From assembly GCA_002701385.1 (NCBI GenBank), contig NZVD01000063.1:11675-75674 (forward strand): DNA of 64,000 bases, written 5' to 3'. Both the position numbers and the translations under genes were made by a program. The notes beneath the pieces are model-generated. The model saw only the letters and a program-made list of their open reading frames with translations. It searched no databases and was not told the origin of the DNA. Every line of letters begins with the position of its first letter. Within the stretch, counting starts at the first letter, position 1. The stretch comes from Rhodopirellula sp. Lineage in GTDB: Bacteria > Planctomycetota > Planctomycetia > Pirellulales > Pirellulaceae. Shown piece by piece: positions 3 to 7,683 of this stretch.

Positions 3-1220
3 GGGTATGGTGATCTTGGTTGTTATGGACAACAAACCATTACCACTCCGTACATCGATAAACTCGCTAAAGAAGGCATGCGATTTACCGACCACTATGC
101 CGGTCACACTGTCTGCCGTCCATCCCGCCTGGTGTTACTCACAGGTAAACACAGCGGTAATACGCCTATCCATGGTAATACACAGTATTACTTTCCCGCC
201 AATACTCAAACGGTCACCACGCTACTCAAACAAAAAGGGTATGTAACAGGGGGCGTCGGAAAGTGGGCACTCGGGACTCCTCAAACAACGGGAGTACCGT
301 CTAAACAAGGCTTTGATTATTGGTTCGGCTATTTAGATCAGAGTCGCGCTCATAACTTTTATCCCGAGTATTTATGGGAAAACGAAACCAAGTTCCCACT
401 CAGTGGGAACGTCGAAGGCCCGAAGAAAAATGTATCCACTGAACGAGTCACTTATTCGCATGACGTAATGCATGAAAAGGCATTGGCTTTTATTCGTGAA
501 AATGCTCACGAACCGTTTTTCTTGCAAGCTCACTACACGATCCCTCACACAAATAACGAAGGAGGCCGGGCAACTGGTAATGGTCAGGAAGTACCAGATT
601 ACGGTGCCTATGCCAGTAAGGACTGGCCCGCTCCGGAACGTGGCTTTGCAGCGATGATCTCTCGACTGGACAGTGATATCGGTGAGATGATGAAGCTCTT
701 GCAGGAACTCAATATTGATCGTCGGACATTAGTGATCTTCACCTCAGATAATGGGCCACATCAGGAAGGCGGGCATAAGATGGAGTTCTTTAATTCCAAC
801 GGAAACTTGCGAGGTTTCAAACGCGATCTTTATGATGGTGGAATCCGAGTACCCATGATTGCGCGATGGCCGGGCGTCATTCAGCCAGATACTACTTCGA
901 ATCATCCGTCTGCCTTTTGGGATTTCCTGCCGACTGCCTGCGAACTGGCCAATATCGAACCACCCGCCGACACGGATGGGATCTCCTATCTACCAACACT
1001 GTTAGGAAAGCCTCAGGACCAACACGAATATTTGTTCTGGCGAGCAGGGCAAAAATTTGCTGTCCGCCGAGGCGAGTGGAAAGCCGTGCGTCTTAATGAC
1101 AAGGCGGCCGTGGAGCTGTATAACCTGAAAGAGGATTTGGGTGAACAAAATAATCTTGCCAGTAAACACCCTGAATTAGTGGGTGAATTTGAAGCCATCA
1201 TTGCAAAACATCGGCAATAA
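3..1220 (+). CDS. Sulfatase (arylsulfatase family), 5'-truncated by the window edge
   Basis: Hydrolyses sulfate esters, probably on polysaccharides, outside the cytoplasm. The frame is open from base 3, and the first visible residues (GYGDLGCYG) are the conserved region that follows the N-terminal metal-binding aspartates, so the true start lies left of the window. The CRPSR motif (Cys at 114-116) is the Cys-type site that is matured to formylglycine. Further on are the metal-site segment TSDNGPH and GGIRVPMIARWPG, both typical of the family. About 405 residues are visible and the C-terminus is complete. It is followed after 50 bases by a membrane protein gene on the same strand. The family call is sure; the substrate is unknown. 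Confidence 0.95.
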   Translation, partial: GYGDLGCYGQQTITTPYIDKLAKEGMRFTDHYAGHTVCRPSRLVLLTGKHSGNTPIHGNTQYYFPANTQTVTTLLKQKGYVTGGVGKWALGTPQTTGVPSKQGFDYWFGYLDQSRAHNFYPEYLWENETKFPLSGNVEGPKKNVSTERVTYSHDVMHEKALAFIRENAHEPFFLQAHYTIPHTNNEGGRATGNGQEVPDYGAYASKDWPAPERGFAAMISRLDSDIGEMMKLLQELNIDRRTLVIFTSDNGPHQEGGHKMEFFNSNGNLRGFKRDLYDGGIRVPMIARWPGVIQPDTTSNHPSAFWDFLPTACELANIEPPADTDGISYLPTLLGKPQDQHEYLFWRAGQKFAVRRGEWKAVRLNDKAAVELYNLKEDLGEQNNLASKHPELVGEFEAIIAKHRQ

Positions 1221-1270: not shown

Positions 1271-2392
1271 GTGAAATCAGCTACATTTCAGCCCGGATAT
1301 ATTTTAGACCGTCGTGGAGATACGATTTGGTTCTTGGGGCTTCCTTATATCGCCGTCTTATTCGCAGTCAGTTGTCAAATGTGGCTTCCTGCAGTCGCGC
1401 TGGTGTCCATCAGTCTCTGGATCACGATTCCCCATCACTTCGCTACTTGGCTTCGTACGTATGGGTTTAAGGAAGACCTGTCGCGATGGAAAGAACGGCT
1501 AATCATCGGGCCAGTCATTATTTTCACACTGACCATCTTGGGGGCTATTTATGTACCACTGACCTTCTTCATGGTAAACGTTCTCTGGGACCACCAGCAC
1601 AGTATCATGCAACAGCATGGTTTCAGCCGAATCTATGATTTCAAATCAGGCACCGGCACTAAACGAAGTGGGAAATTTGACCTCGGATTCCACTGGATCT
1701 TCTTTGGGAACATGTTGATTACCTCACCTTTGTTTAGCACGATCTGGATTGCGCAGTTTGCTTCCATGGGGCTCCTTCCAGATACCTCAACCGTACAAAT
1801 GATCCAGTCCGTGAGTTGGGGCATCACGATTAGTTATGGAGTTGTTTACTTACTTCAACTTATTCAGAGTGTCCGTCAGGGACAAAAAATCAATCCCATC
1901 AAATATGTGTTCATTGGGTCGAGCTATTTTCTCTGGTACTTTTGTGCGTGGCATGCCTCCTCGGTATTGGTCTGGGGGATTGCTCATCGCATCATGCACG
2001 GGCTTCAATACATCATCATTGTTTATTGGTACCTCCGCAGGAAAGCAGAGACCGACCTGCCCTCTGACATTCCAGCAGAAGGTTTTGGATTCAAATTAGT
2101 TCGATACATGGTAGCTTCGAAACGAGTCTGGGCTTTCGTCGCTATCAGTGTTGTTTATGCCGCCTTATTCCAATTGGTATTGCTTGAACCTATCGAAGTA
2201 TTTGGCTTTGGGGTCTTTCGGATTTCCGAAGTGGATAGAACCATTGAGTCGCTCAAAAGTATCGGGATGACCGATGCCATGTGGCAGGGTGTTTATGCCG
2301 AGATTCTGGTGGCCGGGTTTGGGATGACCCATTTCTACTTCGACTCTTTCATATGGAAAGTGCGCGATAAAAAAGTTCAAAAGGGACTGTAA
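1271..2392 (+). CDS. Histidine-rich multi-pass membrane protein of unknown function
   Basis: I do not recognise a named family. The 373-residue protein starts with GTG and has about seven or eight hydrophobic segments. Histidines sit in clusters at or near membrane boundaries: HH at 55-56, WDHQH at 106-110, H116, H141, WH at 227-228, H239 and H243 (AHRIMHG), and HFYFD at 354-358 near the C-terminus. This spacing recalls membrane-bound di-metal enzymes such as desaturases and hydroxylases, which is an inference. The WD40 gene begins 2 bases after its stop, so the two are almost certainly co-transcribed and probably translationally linked. No clear Shine-Dalgarno precedes the GTG. It is a likely metal-dependent membrane enzyme, or otherwise a heme or quinone-binding protein. 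Confidence 0.75.
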   Translation: MKSATFQPGYILDRRGDTIWFLGLPYIAVLFAVSCQMWLPAVALVSISLWITIPHHFATWLRTYGFKEDLSRWKERLIIGPVIIFTLTILGAIYVPLTFFMVNVLWDHQHSIMQQHGFSRIYDFKSGTGTKRSGKFDLGFHWIFFGNMLITSPLFSTIWIAQFASMGLLPDTSTVQMIQSVSWGITISYGVVYLLQLIQSVRQGQKINPIKYVFIGSSYFLWYFCAWHASSVLVWGIAHRIMHGLQYIIIVYWYLRRKAETDLPSDIPAEGFGFKLVRYMVASKRVWAFVAISVVYAALFQLVLLEPIEVFGFGVFRISEVDRTIESLKSIGMTDAMWQGVYAEILVAGFGMTHFYFDSFIWKVRDKKVQKGL

Positions 2393-2394
2393 GG

Positions 2395-3756
2395 ATGATG
2401 GATCTGTTCCAAAAATACCGAATCCTTATCGTCGTCTCGCTGGCGTTTGCCGGAGGCGCCTGGTATGAGTTGACCTTCGTTGACCAATCGAGGGCGTACG
2501 TGTCTGCCATGGCGGCCCCTAATCCAGCAGCCAGTGTGCTAATCGAACTTTACCCACAGCGTTTGGGGACAAAGTGCCTCGAAGCCGATCAGGCTTTGTA
2601 TTTACGCTATGACCTCGAAGCCGCCAAGAAAAACCTCGAGCAGGCCTTAGCGAACAACTATAAAGATGACCCAAGCTATTATTACAATTACGCTTCGGTT
2701 GTTGTGATGCTGGATGAACCGCAGGACGTGGTGGAAGAAGCTGTTCGGCAATGGCGAGCTAATGGCATTCCGGTTCAGGATGAGTTGGACCCAAGACTTA
2801 TCTACAAAGATGTCAGTTTCCCACTACCGCCGGACGAAGGCTTGACGCAACTATTGGCCAAGTCGCTCGATGGTCGCCGGGTAGTCATGGCACCTGAAAT
2901 GGCACCAGGAGGTGACCGATTTTTTGCTCAAGTGCATCACCTGTTTGAGAGAAACTTAGCGTATCGCACAAGCAATATCTCAGCCACCTCTCGATTTACA
3001 GCACTCAATCTATCACCAAACGGCTCTCATCTGATTACGGCAAACGAAGGTGGTACCATTGCCATCTTGGATTTGGATCAACAACAAACACTACATCGTC
3101 TGAGTAATCCTAGCGGCGATGTACATGCCGTTGCAGTATTACCAACTCACAATCTCGCTGTGACTGGTGACCATGCCGGAGCACTACGATTATGGGATCT
3201 AACCAGTGGTGAAGTTCTGACCACACTTCAGGGATCGGAACGACCTTTATCCTCCATTGCGATTTCACATGACCAATCGCACATTGCGGCGGGTAATTGG
3301 AATGGAGACATCAAAGTATGGCGTCTTTCACCTACTGAAAACAAACCACTATTGGAATTGGTCTCGCTAAATCCTTCTGCCCATCAGGGCGTTATTACAA
3401 AACTCGTGTTTAACTCTGATGGAACCCAATTAGCCAGCGCCAGTCGCGACCATAAGGCTCGAATGTGGAATCTAGATTCGACCCCGCAAGAACTCTTTCA
3501 AGTCGAACACAAAGCTCCTGTCTACGGGTTGGATATATCACCTGATGGAAGTCATCTGGTGACATCAGGTGAGGATCGGCAGATTAAGATTTGGGCTACT
3601 GCATCTGGAGAAGAGCAGAAACAAATTGAAGTGATTGGAGCATTTACTGATAGTGAGCGAATTGCGTTACCCATGTACTCTGTCTTATTTTCGATGGATT
3701 CGAAGGAAATCATCGTTGTCAATAATCGACAGGAAATTCAGAACTACGATTACTAG
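2395..3756 (+). CDS. Membrane-anchored or secreted WD40-repeat protein
   Basis: The 453-residue protein has an N-terminal hydrophobic segment (about residues 8-25), a helical TPR-like stretch around 60-125 (DLEAAKKNLEQALAN), and a C-terminal beta-propeller from about residue 195. Several blades show the family signature: ALRLWDLTSGE, IKVWRLSP, ARMWNLDS and IKIWATASGE, with repeats of the type LSPNGSHLITANEGG before them. WD40 propellers act as protein-binding platforms and have no catalytic role of their own. The 2-base spacing from the preceding histidine-rich membrane protein suggests that the two products work together. It starts at ATG 2395, with a second ATG immediately after. The propeller is certain; the partner is inferred. 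Confidence 0.88.
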   Translation: MMDLFQKYRILIVVSLAFAGGAWYELTFVDQSRAYVSAMAAPNPAASVLIELYPQRLGTKCLEADQALYLRYDLEAAKKNLEQALANNYKDDPSYYYNYASVVVMLDEPQDVVEEAVRQWRANGIPVQDELDPRLIYKDVSFPLPPDEGLTQLLAKSLDGRRVVMAPEMAPGGDRFFAQVHHLFERNLAYRTSNISATSRFTALNLSPNGSHLITANEGGTIAILDLDQQQTLHRLSNPSGDVHAVAVLPTHNLAVTGDHAGALRLWDLTSGEVLTTLQGSERPLSSIAISHDQSHIAAGNWNGDIKVWRLSPTENKPLLELVSLNPSAHQGVITKLVFNSDGTQLASASRDHKARMWNLDSTPQELFQVEHKAPVYGLDISPDGSHLVTSGEDRQIKIWATASGEEQKQIEVIGAFTDSERIALPMYSVLFSMDSKEIIVVNNRQEIQNYDY

Positions 3757-3808: not shown

Positions 3809-5770
3809 TCACTGAATCCTTGAATCGGCTTGGGTCTCACGCCTGATTTGCCGAAGCACCGGTTCTAAAACAGGACGAATCAAAACCTCTGAACCGATCT
3901 GACTCAAGTGCGTCTTATCTGTATAGTATTTCGCTGAATGCGTCCCGATCAAAGATTGACCATTCTCAAAACAATAGGGGGCAACAGGTAGGAATTCTAA
4001 GTTTGGGTGATTGGCATACCGCTGGAAAACAGTGTTAACCGATTCCTGCTGCTTTTCGTATTGCCGTTGACTGATACCAAACGGAACGGGTTGGCCCTGT
4101 CTATTCGCATTGATGATGGCACGACTTATATCTAAATTCTGATCTGGAATTTGGTGCATTACCCAGACTTTCACTCCGATCGCGTGCAACGTATCAATCG
4201 TTTTTTTGAAGGCTTTATCAAATACCGGAGGTGCATAATAGGACATGACTCCTTGTTTTGGTTTCAAATAGGCACTCCATCTGGATACCATAATCACGTT
4301 CTGAATCTGGTGCTGTTTGATCTCCTCTAAAACAGCCTCTATTAACTCCTGTTGATCGAAACGGCCACCAACGCCAGTTTCTAACAACGGAGGTGTGGAA
4401 TTCCTGGTTGCGATATAACCTGTCATCTGGATTTCGAAACAAAGGTTATCTACCATTTCTGAAATCATTCGGGTCTGAGAGTCACCCCATATCAGAAATG
4501 TCGGCTTGCCTTGCTGTCTGCCTACTAAAGGCAAGCCTCTTTTCTGGATATCCTGCTTGGAATCCGTCCGAAATCGTGAAGTCATGTCGGCATGTATAAC
4601 ATCCTTTAGCGAGGCTTCATATCGATTTGGCAGGCCGTTTAATTCAATGATCCACAACGGTAGCACCACAAAGGCCAAACCCAGCGATAATACGGCATAG
4701 GTAAGTCGTTTATTGCTTGCCAACCACGTGCGTTTTCGAAAAGGTTGTTCAACAAATCTCCATGACAGGTATCCCATCAAAACACTGGCGGCAACTAACG
4801 CTGTCGCAATTGGCCACGTTAGTTCGGAAGCGAACTCAAGTTTTGTGAAAACGATTAAAGGCCAATGCCACAAATATAGTGAATAAGAGATGAGTCCTAT
4901 CCCAACCATGATTCGTAATCGCAAGAACCGCGTCACAAGATTGGGGGCCTGTGTTCCGTATATGAGTCCGGCGGTCGCAAAACAGGGAAGGATCGCATTG
5001 GCTCCTGGGAACACTGTAGATTCGTCGTAACTCCAAAAGCAATAAAGTAGGCTCGTCATCGAGAGAAAGCAAAGTACCGTCCGGAAGATTGAAGTCTTTT
5101 CCAAATCAACGACAGTATTGGAAAAACAGGCAAGACAACAGCCTATTAATAACTCCCAAGCTCGGGACTGTAACAAAAAGAATGCCAGTTGGGGGTCTCG
5201 TTCCACCTGCCAGATGCTGTATGCCAAAGAAAGAACCAAAAGGCCCCCCAATCCAACAAGGACTGTTCGCCTGCCTCGTCGATAAAACAGACAAAGCAGT
5301 AGAGGTAAGAGTAGGTAAAAGTGTTCTTCTACAGCCAGCGACCAGGAATGTAGAACAGGATTCAAGCCGGCAATCGGATCGAAGTAATCGATGCGATAAG
5401 CAAAGTGATAGTTTGCAAATAGTACGACCTGAGCCAGCTGAGCTTTAACTAAACTGATGAGTTCTGATGGTAATAGAATAACAAGCCCAATAAGGAGCGT
5501 TCCAATGAGCATTGCAAAACTCGCCGGAGCCAAGCGGCGAAGTCGCTTTATCCAAAATGACTTCAGGTTAAATGTACCTGCCTTGAGGTCTGCAGATATT
5601 ATGGACGTAATCAAGAAACCTGAGATTACGAAGAAGACATCGACACCGACATAGCCTCCGGTTATCCCAATATCGAGATGGAAAAGAACGACTGCAAGAA
5701 CGGCTACCGCCCTTAGACCATCTAATTCGGGGCGGTATGAAATTCTAGCCAATGTATTACCTCCCAACAT
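3809..5770 (-). CDS. Acyltransferase 3 (OafA/YrhL type) with C-terminal SGNH domain
   Basis: Transfers acetyl or other acyl groups onto cell-surface glycans. The N-terminal membrane domain (about residues 10-385) has the ELDGLRAVAV motif with His31, GVDVFFVISGFLI, and HSWSLAVEEHFY at 141-152. The C-terminal SGNH domain has the GDSQ nucleophile motif at 429-432 and DKTH at 618-621, giving the catalytic Ser and Asp/His. The frame is open to base 5929, but residue 1 is placed at ATG 5770: AGGAAGG lies just upstream, and the extra 53 residues resemble no part of the family. The resulting 653 residues match the usual fused length. The gene is next to sulfotransferases, so a role in decorating a surface polysaccharide is likely. 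Confidence 0.92.
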   Translation of the reverse strand: MLGGNTLARISYRPELDGLRAVAVLAVVLFHLDIGITGGYVGVDVFFVISGFLITSIISADLKAGTFNLKSFWIKRLRRLAPASFAMLIGTLLIGLVILLPSELISLVKAQLAQVVLFANYHFAYRIDYFDPIAGLNPVLHSWSLAVEEHFYLLLPLLLCLFYRRGRRTVLVGLGGLLVLSLAYSIWQVERDPQLAFFLLQSRAWELLIGCCLACFSNTVVDLEKTSIFRTVLCFLSMTSLLYCFWSYDESTVFPGANAILPCFATAGLIYGTQAPNLVTRFLRLRIMVGIGLISYSLYLWHWPLIVFTKLEFASELTWPIATALVAASVLMGYLSWRFVEQPFRKRTWLASNKRLTYAVLSLGLAFVVLPLWIIELNGLPNRYEASLKDVIHADMTSRFRTDSKQDIQKRGLPLVGRQQGKPTFLIWGDSQTRMISEMVDNLCFEIQMTGYIATRNSTPPLLETGVGGRFDQQELIEAVLEEIKQHQIQNVIMVSRWSAYLKPKQGVMSYYAPPVFDKAFKKTIDTLHAIGVKVWVMHQIPDQNLDISRAIINANRQGQPVPFGISQRQYEKQQESVNTVFQRYANHPNLEFLPVAPYCFENGQSLIGTHSAKYYTDKTHLSQIGSEVLIRPVLEPVLRQIRRETQADSRIQ

Positions 5771-6103
5771 ACCTTCCTGAGTGTGGCTTAACCAATCTAA
5801 CTCTTTCCAGAGAATAATTTTAGGGTTGGTAAAACCCTTGTCTGCTAATCCCTGCTGATTGATTATTTCGAGTGTCTCTAGGCCCTCGATGAAACCGGTA
5901 GAATAACTTAGGTATCTTTGTGCTTTCAATGCCGATGTATTAGCTCAAGAATCGACTCGAACTATTCACCAACCAATTCTCCGAGAATTGGTCTTGTTGC
6001 AAATCAATTCGCCACATTACTCTCACCCTTGTGTGCTACTGAACCGGTATCTGCCGCATAGTGGCAATCTCAACACCCAGACCAACGCTCGACTGACACT
6101 TCC
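5771..6103. other. Divergent intergenic region with a 21-base palindrome
   Basis: This stretch of about 330 bases lies between the leftward acyltransferase and the rightward sulfotransferase. Part of it (5771-5929) is open in frame with the acyltransferase but is judged non-coding. It contains a near-perfect palindrome at 5972-5992. I see no RNA gene or small ORF with a ribosome binding site. It presumably holds both divergent promoters. Confidence 0.6.
5972..5992. promoter_or_regulatory. Candidate operator palindrome
   Basis: ACCAATTCTC and GAGAATTGGT form ten-base perfect arms around a single central C. The centre is too short for a fully paired hairpin and no T-run follows on either strand, so a dimeric regulator site fits better than a terminator. 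It sits in the divergent region between the acyltransferase and sulfotransferase genes. Confidence 0.4.
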
Positions 6104-6844
6104 ATGATCATATCGCACAAACATAAGTTCATTTTTATTCACATGTCTCACACCAGTGGACGTAGTTTAACGATGGATTTAGTTAATCACTGCGGAGCGG
6201 ATGACATCATCACCCCAACTGGGGATTATGAAGGACAAAACTGTAACGGTTGGACGCGTCACATGCCTGCTCGTGAGGTTAAAGAACGTATTGGTGATGA
6301 GATCTGGGACTCGTACTACACCTTTTGTATGGATCGAAATCCCTGGGACAAGGTCACTTCAAATTATTGGTACAAACGTGGATATAAACATAAGGAAGCA
6401 CGAGCGGCAGAACGAGTTCATTTCGCGGAGCGAGCCATAAGAAGGTGCTTTGGCTATCCGTGGGGGCTTAATACCTGGCTTCGATATCGTTTCGTGAAGA
6501 ACCGACTCTCCTTTGCGCATCGCCCTAAACTCCCAAGAGGATCCTATTGGTTTACCGACCAGCAAGGGAATATTATCGTAGACTCAATTTTTCGTTATGA
6601 GTGTCGCATGGATCACGTGAGGCATCTGGCAGATCGACTCCAAATCCAAATCGGAAACATGTCGCAAGAAGGACGTCTTACCCGAAAAACCAAGCGAAGT
6701 TACGTCGAAGAATATGACAACTGGAGCAGAGAGGCTATTCGTGACTTTTTCGATACCGATTTGAAGATACTCAAATATGAATTCGGCGAAGAAGGACCTC
6801 AAAACATTATTGAAATGAAAAACTCCAATATCTTCTCTCAATAA
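6104..6844 (+). CDS. Sulfotransferase family protein with altered PAPS-binding motif
   Basis: A 246-residue protein of the carbohydrate sulfotransferase fold, expected to move sulfate from PAPS to a glycan. The N-terminal strand-loop-helix FIFIHMSHTSGRS (9-21) occupies the place of the 5'-phosphosulfate loop, usually IPKTAGTS, but His16 stands where the conserved lysine is expected. The 3'-phosphate motif is present: DRNPWDKVTSNYW, with Arg78 and Ser86. No Shine-Dalgarno is evident before ATG 6104. The gene converges on a second sulfotransferase with only 14 bases between the stops. The fold is likely; activity is less sure because of the missing lysine. Confidence 0.8.
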   Translation: MIISHKHKFIFIHMSHTSGRSLTMDLVNHCGADDIITPTGDYEGQNCNGWTRHMPAREVKERIGDEIWDSYYTFCMDRNPWDKVTSNYWYKRGYKHKEARAAERVHFAERAIRRCFGYPWGLNTWLRYRFVKNRLSFAHRPKLPRGSYWFTDQQGNIIVDSIFRYECRMDHVRHLADRLQIQIGNMSQEGRLTRKTKRSYVEEYDNWSREAIRDFFDTDLKILKYEFGEEGPQNIIEMKNSNIFSQ

Positions 6845-6858
6845 GGTCAATGCTGGCC

Positions 6859-7683
6859 TTAGAGATTCCGCCAGGATTGTTCGTCGTAACCAAACTTGGC
6901 AAAGTCTTGCTTATAGAGGCTGATCATTCGATCGGCGATTTCTTCATTGAGTACTGACGTGTCTTTTTTTCCACTTGAGTTTCTTGGCTTACCTGCAACC
7001 TCGCGAACCCAATCCGCATCGATACCCAACACACCGAGTATCTCACAAACTCCGTTGGAAAATCCCGATTCAATTTTATGGATATGATCGTATTGAATGA
7101 CATCAGCATGGAGGACAGACGTTTGTGTGTCCCAATGTTGATTACGCTGACCTTCCGGAAGCGACTCAACAAAATGAAAGAAAGTATCAAATGAGACGAC
7201 TTCGTCTGGATTCGATCCCTGTAGACCTTTGGATCTTGCAAACTCACGAATAATAGGTATCAACTTGACCATACTGCGCGGCCAACCTTCATGATACCCT
7301 TTTACCAGCTTGTCATTCCACGCAGAAATCGCTCGGGAAAACGGATTGCGAGCAAAGCAATGGAATTGATATTGGTCGGGATTGCGAAACGCATGAATGT
7401 AATCCCTCAGCGAAGCAGTCATATACCGCCGTGTTTCATTCATAGGCCACCATTTGCTGCGCATGGGAGGCATACTATGGGACTTCAATCCATCTACCAG
7501 AATCGAGCGAAATGAGGTGGACCCGACTTTTGGGTTCAAACAAACGACTATCCCTAAATCACGACGCACATAGACCTTGTACGGACTGAAGTGTTTTCGC
7601 GAAAATAGATTCCATATCTCTCTCAATGATCTACTCATAGTATCGAGAATTTTAGAGAGTTCCAAATTAAACGACAACAGCAC
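6859..7683 (-). CDS. Sulfotransferase family 2 (carbohydrate sulfotransferase)
   Basis: A 274-residue enzyme of the HNK-1/chondroitin sulfotransferase type that uses PAPS to sulfate glycans. The 5'-phosphosulfate loop NPKVGSTSF is canonical and keeps the lysine, and the 3'-phosphate motif FARNPFSRAISAWNDK has the expected Arg and Ser. A GTG start at 7681-7683 is preferred because GAAGG lies seven bases upstream; an internal ATG at 7638 has no such signal. No signal peptide is evident, so the enzyme may act at the cytoplasmic face before export of the glycan. The neighbouring acyltransferase and second sulfotransferase suggest a shared target polymer. Confidence 0.9.
   Translation of the reverse strand: MLLSFNLELSKILDTMSRSLREIWNLFSRKHFSPYKVYVRRDLGIVVCLNPKVGSTSFRSILVDGLKSHSMPPMRSKWWPMNETRRYMTASLRDYIHAFRNPDQYQFHCFARNPFSRAISAWNDKLVKGYHEGWPRSMVKLIPIIREFARSKGLQGSNPDEVVSFDTFFHFVESLPEGQRNQHWDTQTSVLHADVIQYDHIHKIESGFSNGVCEILGVLGIDADWVREVAGKPRNSSGKKDTSVLNEEIADRMISLYKQDFAKFGYDEQSWRNL

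Follow-up and report, generated by a model that had tools for sequence, protein, structure and literature searches.

A conserved gene pair of a histidine-containing membrane protein and a TPR-like partner in bacteria, possibly related to the Brp/Blh dioxygenases

The question at this locus

Which kind of protein is encoded by a gene for a 373-residue membrane protein in Rhodopirellula sp. (Planctomycetota), and is the gene that follows it a genuine partner? The two genes lie in a stretch of 64,000 nucleotides of contig NZVD01000063.1 (positions 11,675 to 75,674; referred to as the window), which belongs to an assembly of 4.89 Mb that is 99% complete. A first-pass annotation had described the membrane protein as resembling di-metal oxygenases, outside any named family, coupled to a WD40 propeller protein and located next to a sulfatase. 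The gene positions, the gap of two bases (2393-2394) between both open reading frames (ORFs), and the motifs HH55-56, DHQH 107-110, H228, H239/H243 and HFYFD 354-358 were all recovered in the ORFs:

1271..2392, + strand: membrane-protein ORF, GTG start, 373 amino acids, about ten transmembrane helices
2395..3756, + strand: partner ORF, ATG start, 453 amino acids; short N-terminus, one transmembrane segment, TPR-like module, WD40 propeller

We conclude that the gene pairing is real, that it is formed with a TPR-like module and not with the propeller, and that the idea of an enzyme is plausible. The known kind in which we tentatively place the membrane protein is that of Blh-like membrane oxygenases.

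A widespread family

The membrane protein gave no match to Pfam (E≤1) or NCBIfam and none to PDB sequences, either as a single sequence or as a profile, so that the profile search bore out its position outside the named families. Likewise, no family exceeded its cut-off among the matches shown for 35 close members (Pfam) and 10 remote members (Pfam and NCBIfam). A scan of a collection of species genomes yielded 50 loci encoding relatives of the protein. Five of these relatives share 81–95% identity with it and come from the same bacterial group, the genomes of the closest relatives being titled Planctomycetaceae or Pirellulaceae. The remaining ones share 38–48% identity and come from genomes titled Gemmatimonadetes, Longimicrobiales, Gammaproteobacteria, Planctomycetaceae, Fuerstiella, Myxococcota, Latescibacterota, Deltaproteobacteria and a few more. 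A search of the phylum added one further relative (L052). Of 294 genomes sampled across the window's phylum, 69, its own genome included, were matched by a family profile of 22 rows; no match to the family occurred on plasmids, and no relative was found on viral contigs. The family is thus widespread and has no family model. We found no account of it in the open-licence literature, where most of the searching concerned Blh and its relatives.

A further, remote superfamily member of 385 amino acids, with the same four histidines, is encoded elsewhere in the genome of the window (L113:1926-3080, contig C35). A far branch (L103, L104, L105, L110 and L112) carries GGPH...T(Y/F)(T/L)R-like and WH-x-x-QY motifs, and the WHSMQY of L103 and L104 resembles WHSMRH in the Blh protein of L066.

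Conserved residues and a putative metal site

Conservation was determined in two sets. The closer set comprised the window protein and 51 homologues of 38–95% identity (n = 52). The diverse set comprised 51 distinct genes of 12–46% identity to the window protein, aligned in 60 rows (9 genes occurring twice), and no row was removed before residues were counted. The conserved positions map to four helices:

1433..1438, + strand: H55-H56, helix 2
1589..1612, + strand: D107-H108-Q-H110-SIM-Q114, helix 4
1985..2011, + strand: H239, H243, Q246 and Y247, helix 8; position 247 is Tyr or Phe in 51/51 diverse genes
2330..2344, + strand: H354-F-Y-F-D358, last transmembrane helix

In the diverse set, H55, H110, Q114, H243, H354 and D358 were each present in 51/51 genes, the frame having been chosen in 13 remote loci (L053-L065) by means of a pattern that includes H354 and D358 and was present in 13/13. 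H110 and H354 were likewise found in all 52 proteins of the closer set. Both H55 and H243 occurred in 51/52, the remaining case being a gap in a gene cut by a contig end for the former and an unread base for the latter. The other histidines behaved differently: H56 was retained in only 43/52 and H228 in only 38/52. H108 and H239 were present in 51/52, but Phe occupies both positions in the three paralogues examined, the second genes of loci L016, L023 and L034. The core is therefore made up of four histidines, one glutamine and one aspartate. This histidine pattern is beyond chance, and the core histidines are kept even in homologues that have no WD40 neighbour.

Two AlphaFold models of the membrane protein were obtained, with a mean pLDDT (predicted local distance difference test) of 78.8 and 83.0 and a pTM (predicted TM-score) of 0.80 and 0.82, respectively. 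They consist of roughly ten long helices plus a number of short ones, with H55, H110, H243 and H354 on long helices 2, 4, 8 and 10, respectively. The positively charged loops suggest that the histidine-bearing helices all cross the membrane in the outside-to-inside direction, so that the four histidines of the models would lie at a similar depth. A fold search of the PDB with the first model gave no match at E≤0.001. In a further PDB fold comparison of both models, mainly rhodopsins and G-protein-coupled receptors, with some terpene synthases and UbiA, were retrieved at Z-scores of up to 5.5 and 6.6, a range called generic for helical bundles. Against the viral proteins of BFVD, the best match of the first model was an uncharacterised 276-residue protein of ChoanoV1 (probability 0.89, TM-score 0.38/0.47, E 0.44), and the other matches listed had probabilities of at most 0.15. 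Choanoviruses, ChoanoV1 among them, have been reported as carriers of blh (PMC10016063).

The proposed likeness to di-metal oxygenases was upheld in part, as the pattern does resemble that of a membrane metal enzyme. However, four invariant histidines and D358 on helices 2, 4, 8 and 10 are better suited to a site with one metal than to that of a di-metal oxygenase. A di-iron hydroxylase or desaturase of the AlkB or fatty-acid hydroxylase kind would account for the HH, DHQH and HxxxH clusters near membrane segments. AlkB- and desaturase-type di-iron enzymes have eight or nine histidines, while only four are invariant here and H56, H108, H228 and H239 are replaceable. With PF00487 and PF04116 also unmatched in 35 members at E≤5, we regard this explanation as very unlikely.

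The conserved partner gene

The proteins encoded downstream of the membrane-protein gene fall into one similarity cluster at 47 of 52 loci, including the window, and a hidden Markov model (HMM) added homologues in L007, L032 and L047. Of the 51 loci that could be tested, 50 thus have a partner homologue as the next gene downstream, the sole exception being L049; L018, where just 75 bases remain, was left out of this count. In 16 loci, the two genes of the pair overlap by 4 bases. The following parts of the window's partner were distinguished:

2422..2478, + strand: predicted transmembrane segment, residues 10-28, the most hydrophobic 19 residues
2566..2769, + strand: TPR-like module, inside the partner region conserved across phyla
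2962..3753, + strand: WD40 propeller, observed in no partners other than those of the window and L002-L006

The propeller is unambiguous in the window (PF00400, 108 bits versus a cut-off of 27), but it was seen in only 6 of 50 partners, those of the window and of its five close relatives, and was accordingly rejected as a general feature of the partner. Eight scanned partners from outside this group had no WD40 match; the others outside it are too short for a propeller and match the N-terminal part only. Clustered partners outside the window's group have 129–314 amino acids with a transmembrane segment and a TPR-like module. Among 10 partners scanned, TPR passed the cut-off only in L045 (TPR_16, 35.3 versus 32.7), was below it in L043 and L009, and gave no match in the other seven, including that of the window. 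As conserved among the loci, the partner is a short TPR-like protein anchored in the membrane, and the propeller is a local add-on to it. Hence, what stood of the coupling described by the first-pass annotation is the conserved partner gene, the conserved module of which consists of a transmembrane segment and a TPR-like part.

In remote relatives, TPR repeats over the Pfam cut-off are fused behind the membrane domain in five of seven proteins scanned (L016, L034, L053, L054 and L055). That similar modules occur both fused and split speaks for a joint function of the two proteins. TPR repeats are common, however, and the fused ones may not be homologous to the partner.

Partners from Gemmatimonadota (L022:7096-7812, L035:7099-7782 and others) carry a conserved small C-terminal domain with the pattern W-R-x-x-x-x-F ... 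D-x-R-x-x-x-x-A-V, which might adopt a ferredoxin-like fold. In the three that were scanned (L009, L027 and L035), this domain had no Pfam match over the cut-off.

Possible relation to the Brp/Blh dioxygenases

As the order of the conserved residues recalls the Brp/Blh dioxygenases (PF15461, BCD), the family was compared with these proteins. Alignment by hhalign of the 60 family rows (51 genes) with 14 BCD proteins resulted in a global p of 0.00019 (score 23.4) and a local p of 0.0036 (score 29.9), and the four invariant histidines were aligned on four histidines that are present in 14/14 BCD proteins. None of 100 window-shuffles and none of 40 rotations reached the real scores, the best rotation scoring 19.3 in global and 29.5 in local mode. 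After mechanical trimming, the signal was retained for BCD and was not matched by control families of 14 rows each. The global p was 0.0012 for BCD versus 0.52 for CtaA, 0.57 for Cytochrom_C_asm and 0.56 for UbiA, and the local p was 0.0064 versus 0.63, 0.38 and 0.11, respectively; in the CtaA set 10/14 rows cover part of the protein only, and in the Ccm set trimming left two rows empty, and one row was short. Earlier profile alignments to Blh had given p values of 0.013 and 0.068, and 0.0083 over a short stretch, and the 60 family rows against 7 Blh rows gave 0.0068 (global) and 0.03 (local). A signal that grows with the depth of the alignment looks like distant homology and is suggestive, not proof.

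In Blh of strain 66A03, replacement of His21, His78, His188 or His192 by Ala is reported to leave less than 5% of activity in each case (PMC9227343). By profile alignment and spacing, via other Blh rows, the first three of these would match H55, H110 and H243. Taken together, the alignments are suggestive of the membrane protein being a remote relative of the Brp/Blh beta-carotene dioxygenases.

Several observations weigh against this relationship. HMMER finds no link to BCD in either direction, and BCD did not appear in the Pfam scan of any family member (window protein at E≤1, 35 members at E≤5). The best local rotation, at 29.5, comes close to the real score of 29.9. All four histidines were in register also in 4/40 global rotations, 5/40 local rotations and 7/100 local shuffles, and in-register histidines alone are therefore weak evidence. 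With only 7 BCD rows, global rotations scored up to 20.5 as compared to 14.9 for the real order (shuffles reached only 8.4), and in local mode both shuffles (26.6) and rotations (23.6) exceeded the real score of 23.1; these local controls beat the real order and thus count against the link. One reversed control (CtaA) gave a p of 0.028, and several comparisons preceded the strongest one. The position of Blh His192 is occupied by Y247 in the window protein, and by Tyr or Phe in the family. The fold evidence is mixed: the structural match to ChoanoV1, with an E of 0.44 and a TM-score of 0.38/0.47, is to a protein that is only a candidate blh product, and the second and better model had no ChoanoV1 match among the 50 rows shown. 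Finally, the host has no detectable genes for carotenoid synthesis, the usual though not strictly defining setting of Blh.

This last point was based on searches of the host genome (99% complete), in which neither lycopene cyclase (PF05834; matched in 10/14 control genomes) nor phytoene/squalene synthase (PF00494; matched in 7/14) was found. The genome also had no match to PF15461 itself. Rhodopsin (PF01036) was not matched either, but since none of the control genomes was matched, this result is uninformative. Because carotenoid-synthesis genes were not detected, the known Blh reaction is unlikely and a home-made carotenoid is probably not the substrate. A role in the production of retinal for a rhodopsin was rejected on the same ground, the rhodopsin search being one without a positive control.

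A clear gene of the Blh family was observed on a contig classed as viral (L170:692-1666, IMGVR_UViG_2651870128_000004; HMM E 1.9e-46); our guess is that it represents host DNA at the edge of a provirus. It was the only Blh among 72 stretches of viral contigs, too few for an alignment-based model; four other scans of viral contigs for Blh were negative.

Neighbouring genes and alternative functions

In loci L016, L023 and L034, a gene for a multihaem cytochrome c shares 4 bases with the beginning of the membrane-protein gene. The partner gene in these loci is closely followed by a convergent gene for a paralogue of the membrane protein; the paralogues of L016 and L034 were scanned, and both are fused to TPR. 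The cytochrome c regions are:

L016:1-936, multihaem cytochrome c
L023:3959-5962, multihaem cytochrome c
L034:3931-5871, multihaem cytochrome c

These neighbours, and the position of four invariant histidines on separate helices, which would suit two bis-histidine haems, are consistent with another explanation. The histidines could ligate one or two b-type haems, in which case the protein would carry electrons in the membrane or act as a quinone oxidoreductase, and redox proteins would dock on the outer partner. Yet only three of ten upstream genes scanned encode cytochromes, and the other seven either are unrelated in kind or have no family. No cytochrome b family appeared in the Pfam scans, and the fold search at E≤0.001 was equally negative. 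Alignments to haem-related families also argue against haem ligation: in global mode, CtaA (p 0.57 and 0.52) and Cytochrom_C_asm (p 0.57) had 0/4 histidines in register, and in local mode CtaA gave p values of 0.57 and 0.63, the latter with two histidines in register, and Cytochrom_C_asm gave 0.38 with one. We therefore consider a haem protein rather unlikely.

Next to the window's gene pair, the sulfatase named by the first-pass annotation was confirmed, ending 50 bases upstream of the membrane-protein gene on the same strand:

3..1220, + strand: sulfatase (PF00884), start outside the window; C-x-P-S-R motif, Cys-type by eye

The order sulfatase, membrane protein and partner is repeated in five close relatives (L002-L006). 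A sulfatase adjoins the pair only in these six loci, which are the same that have the WD40 propeller; in L047, a similar sulfatase is found 4.3 kb away. The sulfatase was thus rejected as a general partner. Its presence in the lineage of the window would suit a protein that is not an enzyme at all but transports or senses a metal or lipid, for which the outer TPR/WD40 part would serve as binding domain. The combination of a polytopic membrane domain and an outer domain of repeats fits such a function, and the conserved histidines and aspartate could bind a transported ion. As no transporter family was matched in Pfam and no fold in the PDB (E≤0.001), we judge this function to be unlikely.

Further genes near the pair in the window are the following:

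3809-5929: acyltransferase-SGNH fusion (PF01757 and PF19040)
6104-6844: protein of 246 amino acids, no Pfam match
6859-7683: Sulfotransfer_2 protein

Proposed function

Invariant residues, a conserved gene pair, and TPR-fused versions in remote relatives form the observed base of our proposal. The 373-residue protein would be a polytopic membrane metalloprotein and most likely an oxygenase. A single metal, probably non-haem iron, would be held by H55, H110, H243 and H354 with D358 close by, at a site that helices 2, 4, 8 and 10 may form in the cytoplasmic half of the membrane. The oxygenase would act on a hydrophobic substrate dissolved in the membrane, presumably other than a home-made carotenoid. 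The membrane protein and the adjoining partner may form a complex in which the transmembrane helix of the partner packs against the enzyme, while its TPR-like module, extended here by the WD40 propeller, would be located outside the cytoplasmic membrane as a scaffold, sensor or docking site. As a whole, the proposal of a Blh-related oxygenase with one metal, a non-carotenoid substrate and a complex with the partner falls somewhat short of being probable, and we put it forward tentatively. A broader version is doubtful: a superfamily without a family model, made up of Blh-like non-haem metal oxygenases acting on a membrane lipid or quinone instead of carotenoids, many of them working under an extracytoplasmic TPR module, either fused or adjoining, which was extended by WD40 in one lineage.

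If true, retinal-forming Blh would belong as one branch to a much larger group of membrane enzymes. Most members of this group would lack a family model, and the group would extend to bacteria that may not make carotenoids. The pair of enzyme and TPR module provides a handle for finding the substrate, and the four named histidines make the idea of a metal site directly testable by mutation. Should the link to Blh be wrong, there is still a membrane family with a conserved His4-Asp set and a constant partner for which a function is to be found.

Comparison with known systems

Brp/Blh proteins are polytopic membrane proteins of similar size. By the numbering of the Blh protein in L066, the histidines pair as H55/H47, H110/H104, H243/H223 and H354/H296, in the same order and at similar spacing, and several Brp/Blh proteins have an acidic residue shortly after the last histidine, as does the window family. 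In contrast, the second histidine of the Brp/Blh motif HSxRH is replaced by Tyr or Phe in the window family, the conserved aspartate of PHGAxD has no clear counterpart, and R120, Y122 and K211 are conserved in addition. The TPR partner and a host without detectable carotenoid-synthesis genes are further differences from Brp/Blh.

DUF5134 (PF17197) is a lead only for the family. It matched part of 3/35 members below the cut-off (best E 5e-5). When 20 members were scanned one by one, two of these matches recurred, both below the cut-off of 29 bits (L035, residues 181-304, 20.3 bits; the other, 14.8 bits), and the window protein had no match.

The C-terminal part of the window's partner is a canonical WD40 propeller like that of other WD40 repeat proteins (PF00400). 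Unlike in those proteins, it is preceded by an N-terminal transmembrane segment and a TPR-like module, and it is only this N-terminal part that is conserved in the gene pair.

Another similar system is formed by the TPR-fused proteins (L053, L054 and L055, and the second genes in L016, L023 and L034), which have no family name. They possess the same membrane domain at 24–28% identity, and they share the four histidines and the aspartate with the window protein. Their TPR part, as observed in L016, L034, L053, L054 and L055, is located C-terminally in one chain, whereas at the window it is encoded by the next gene.

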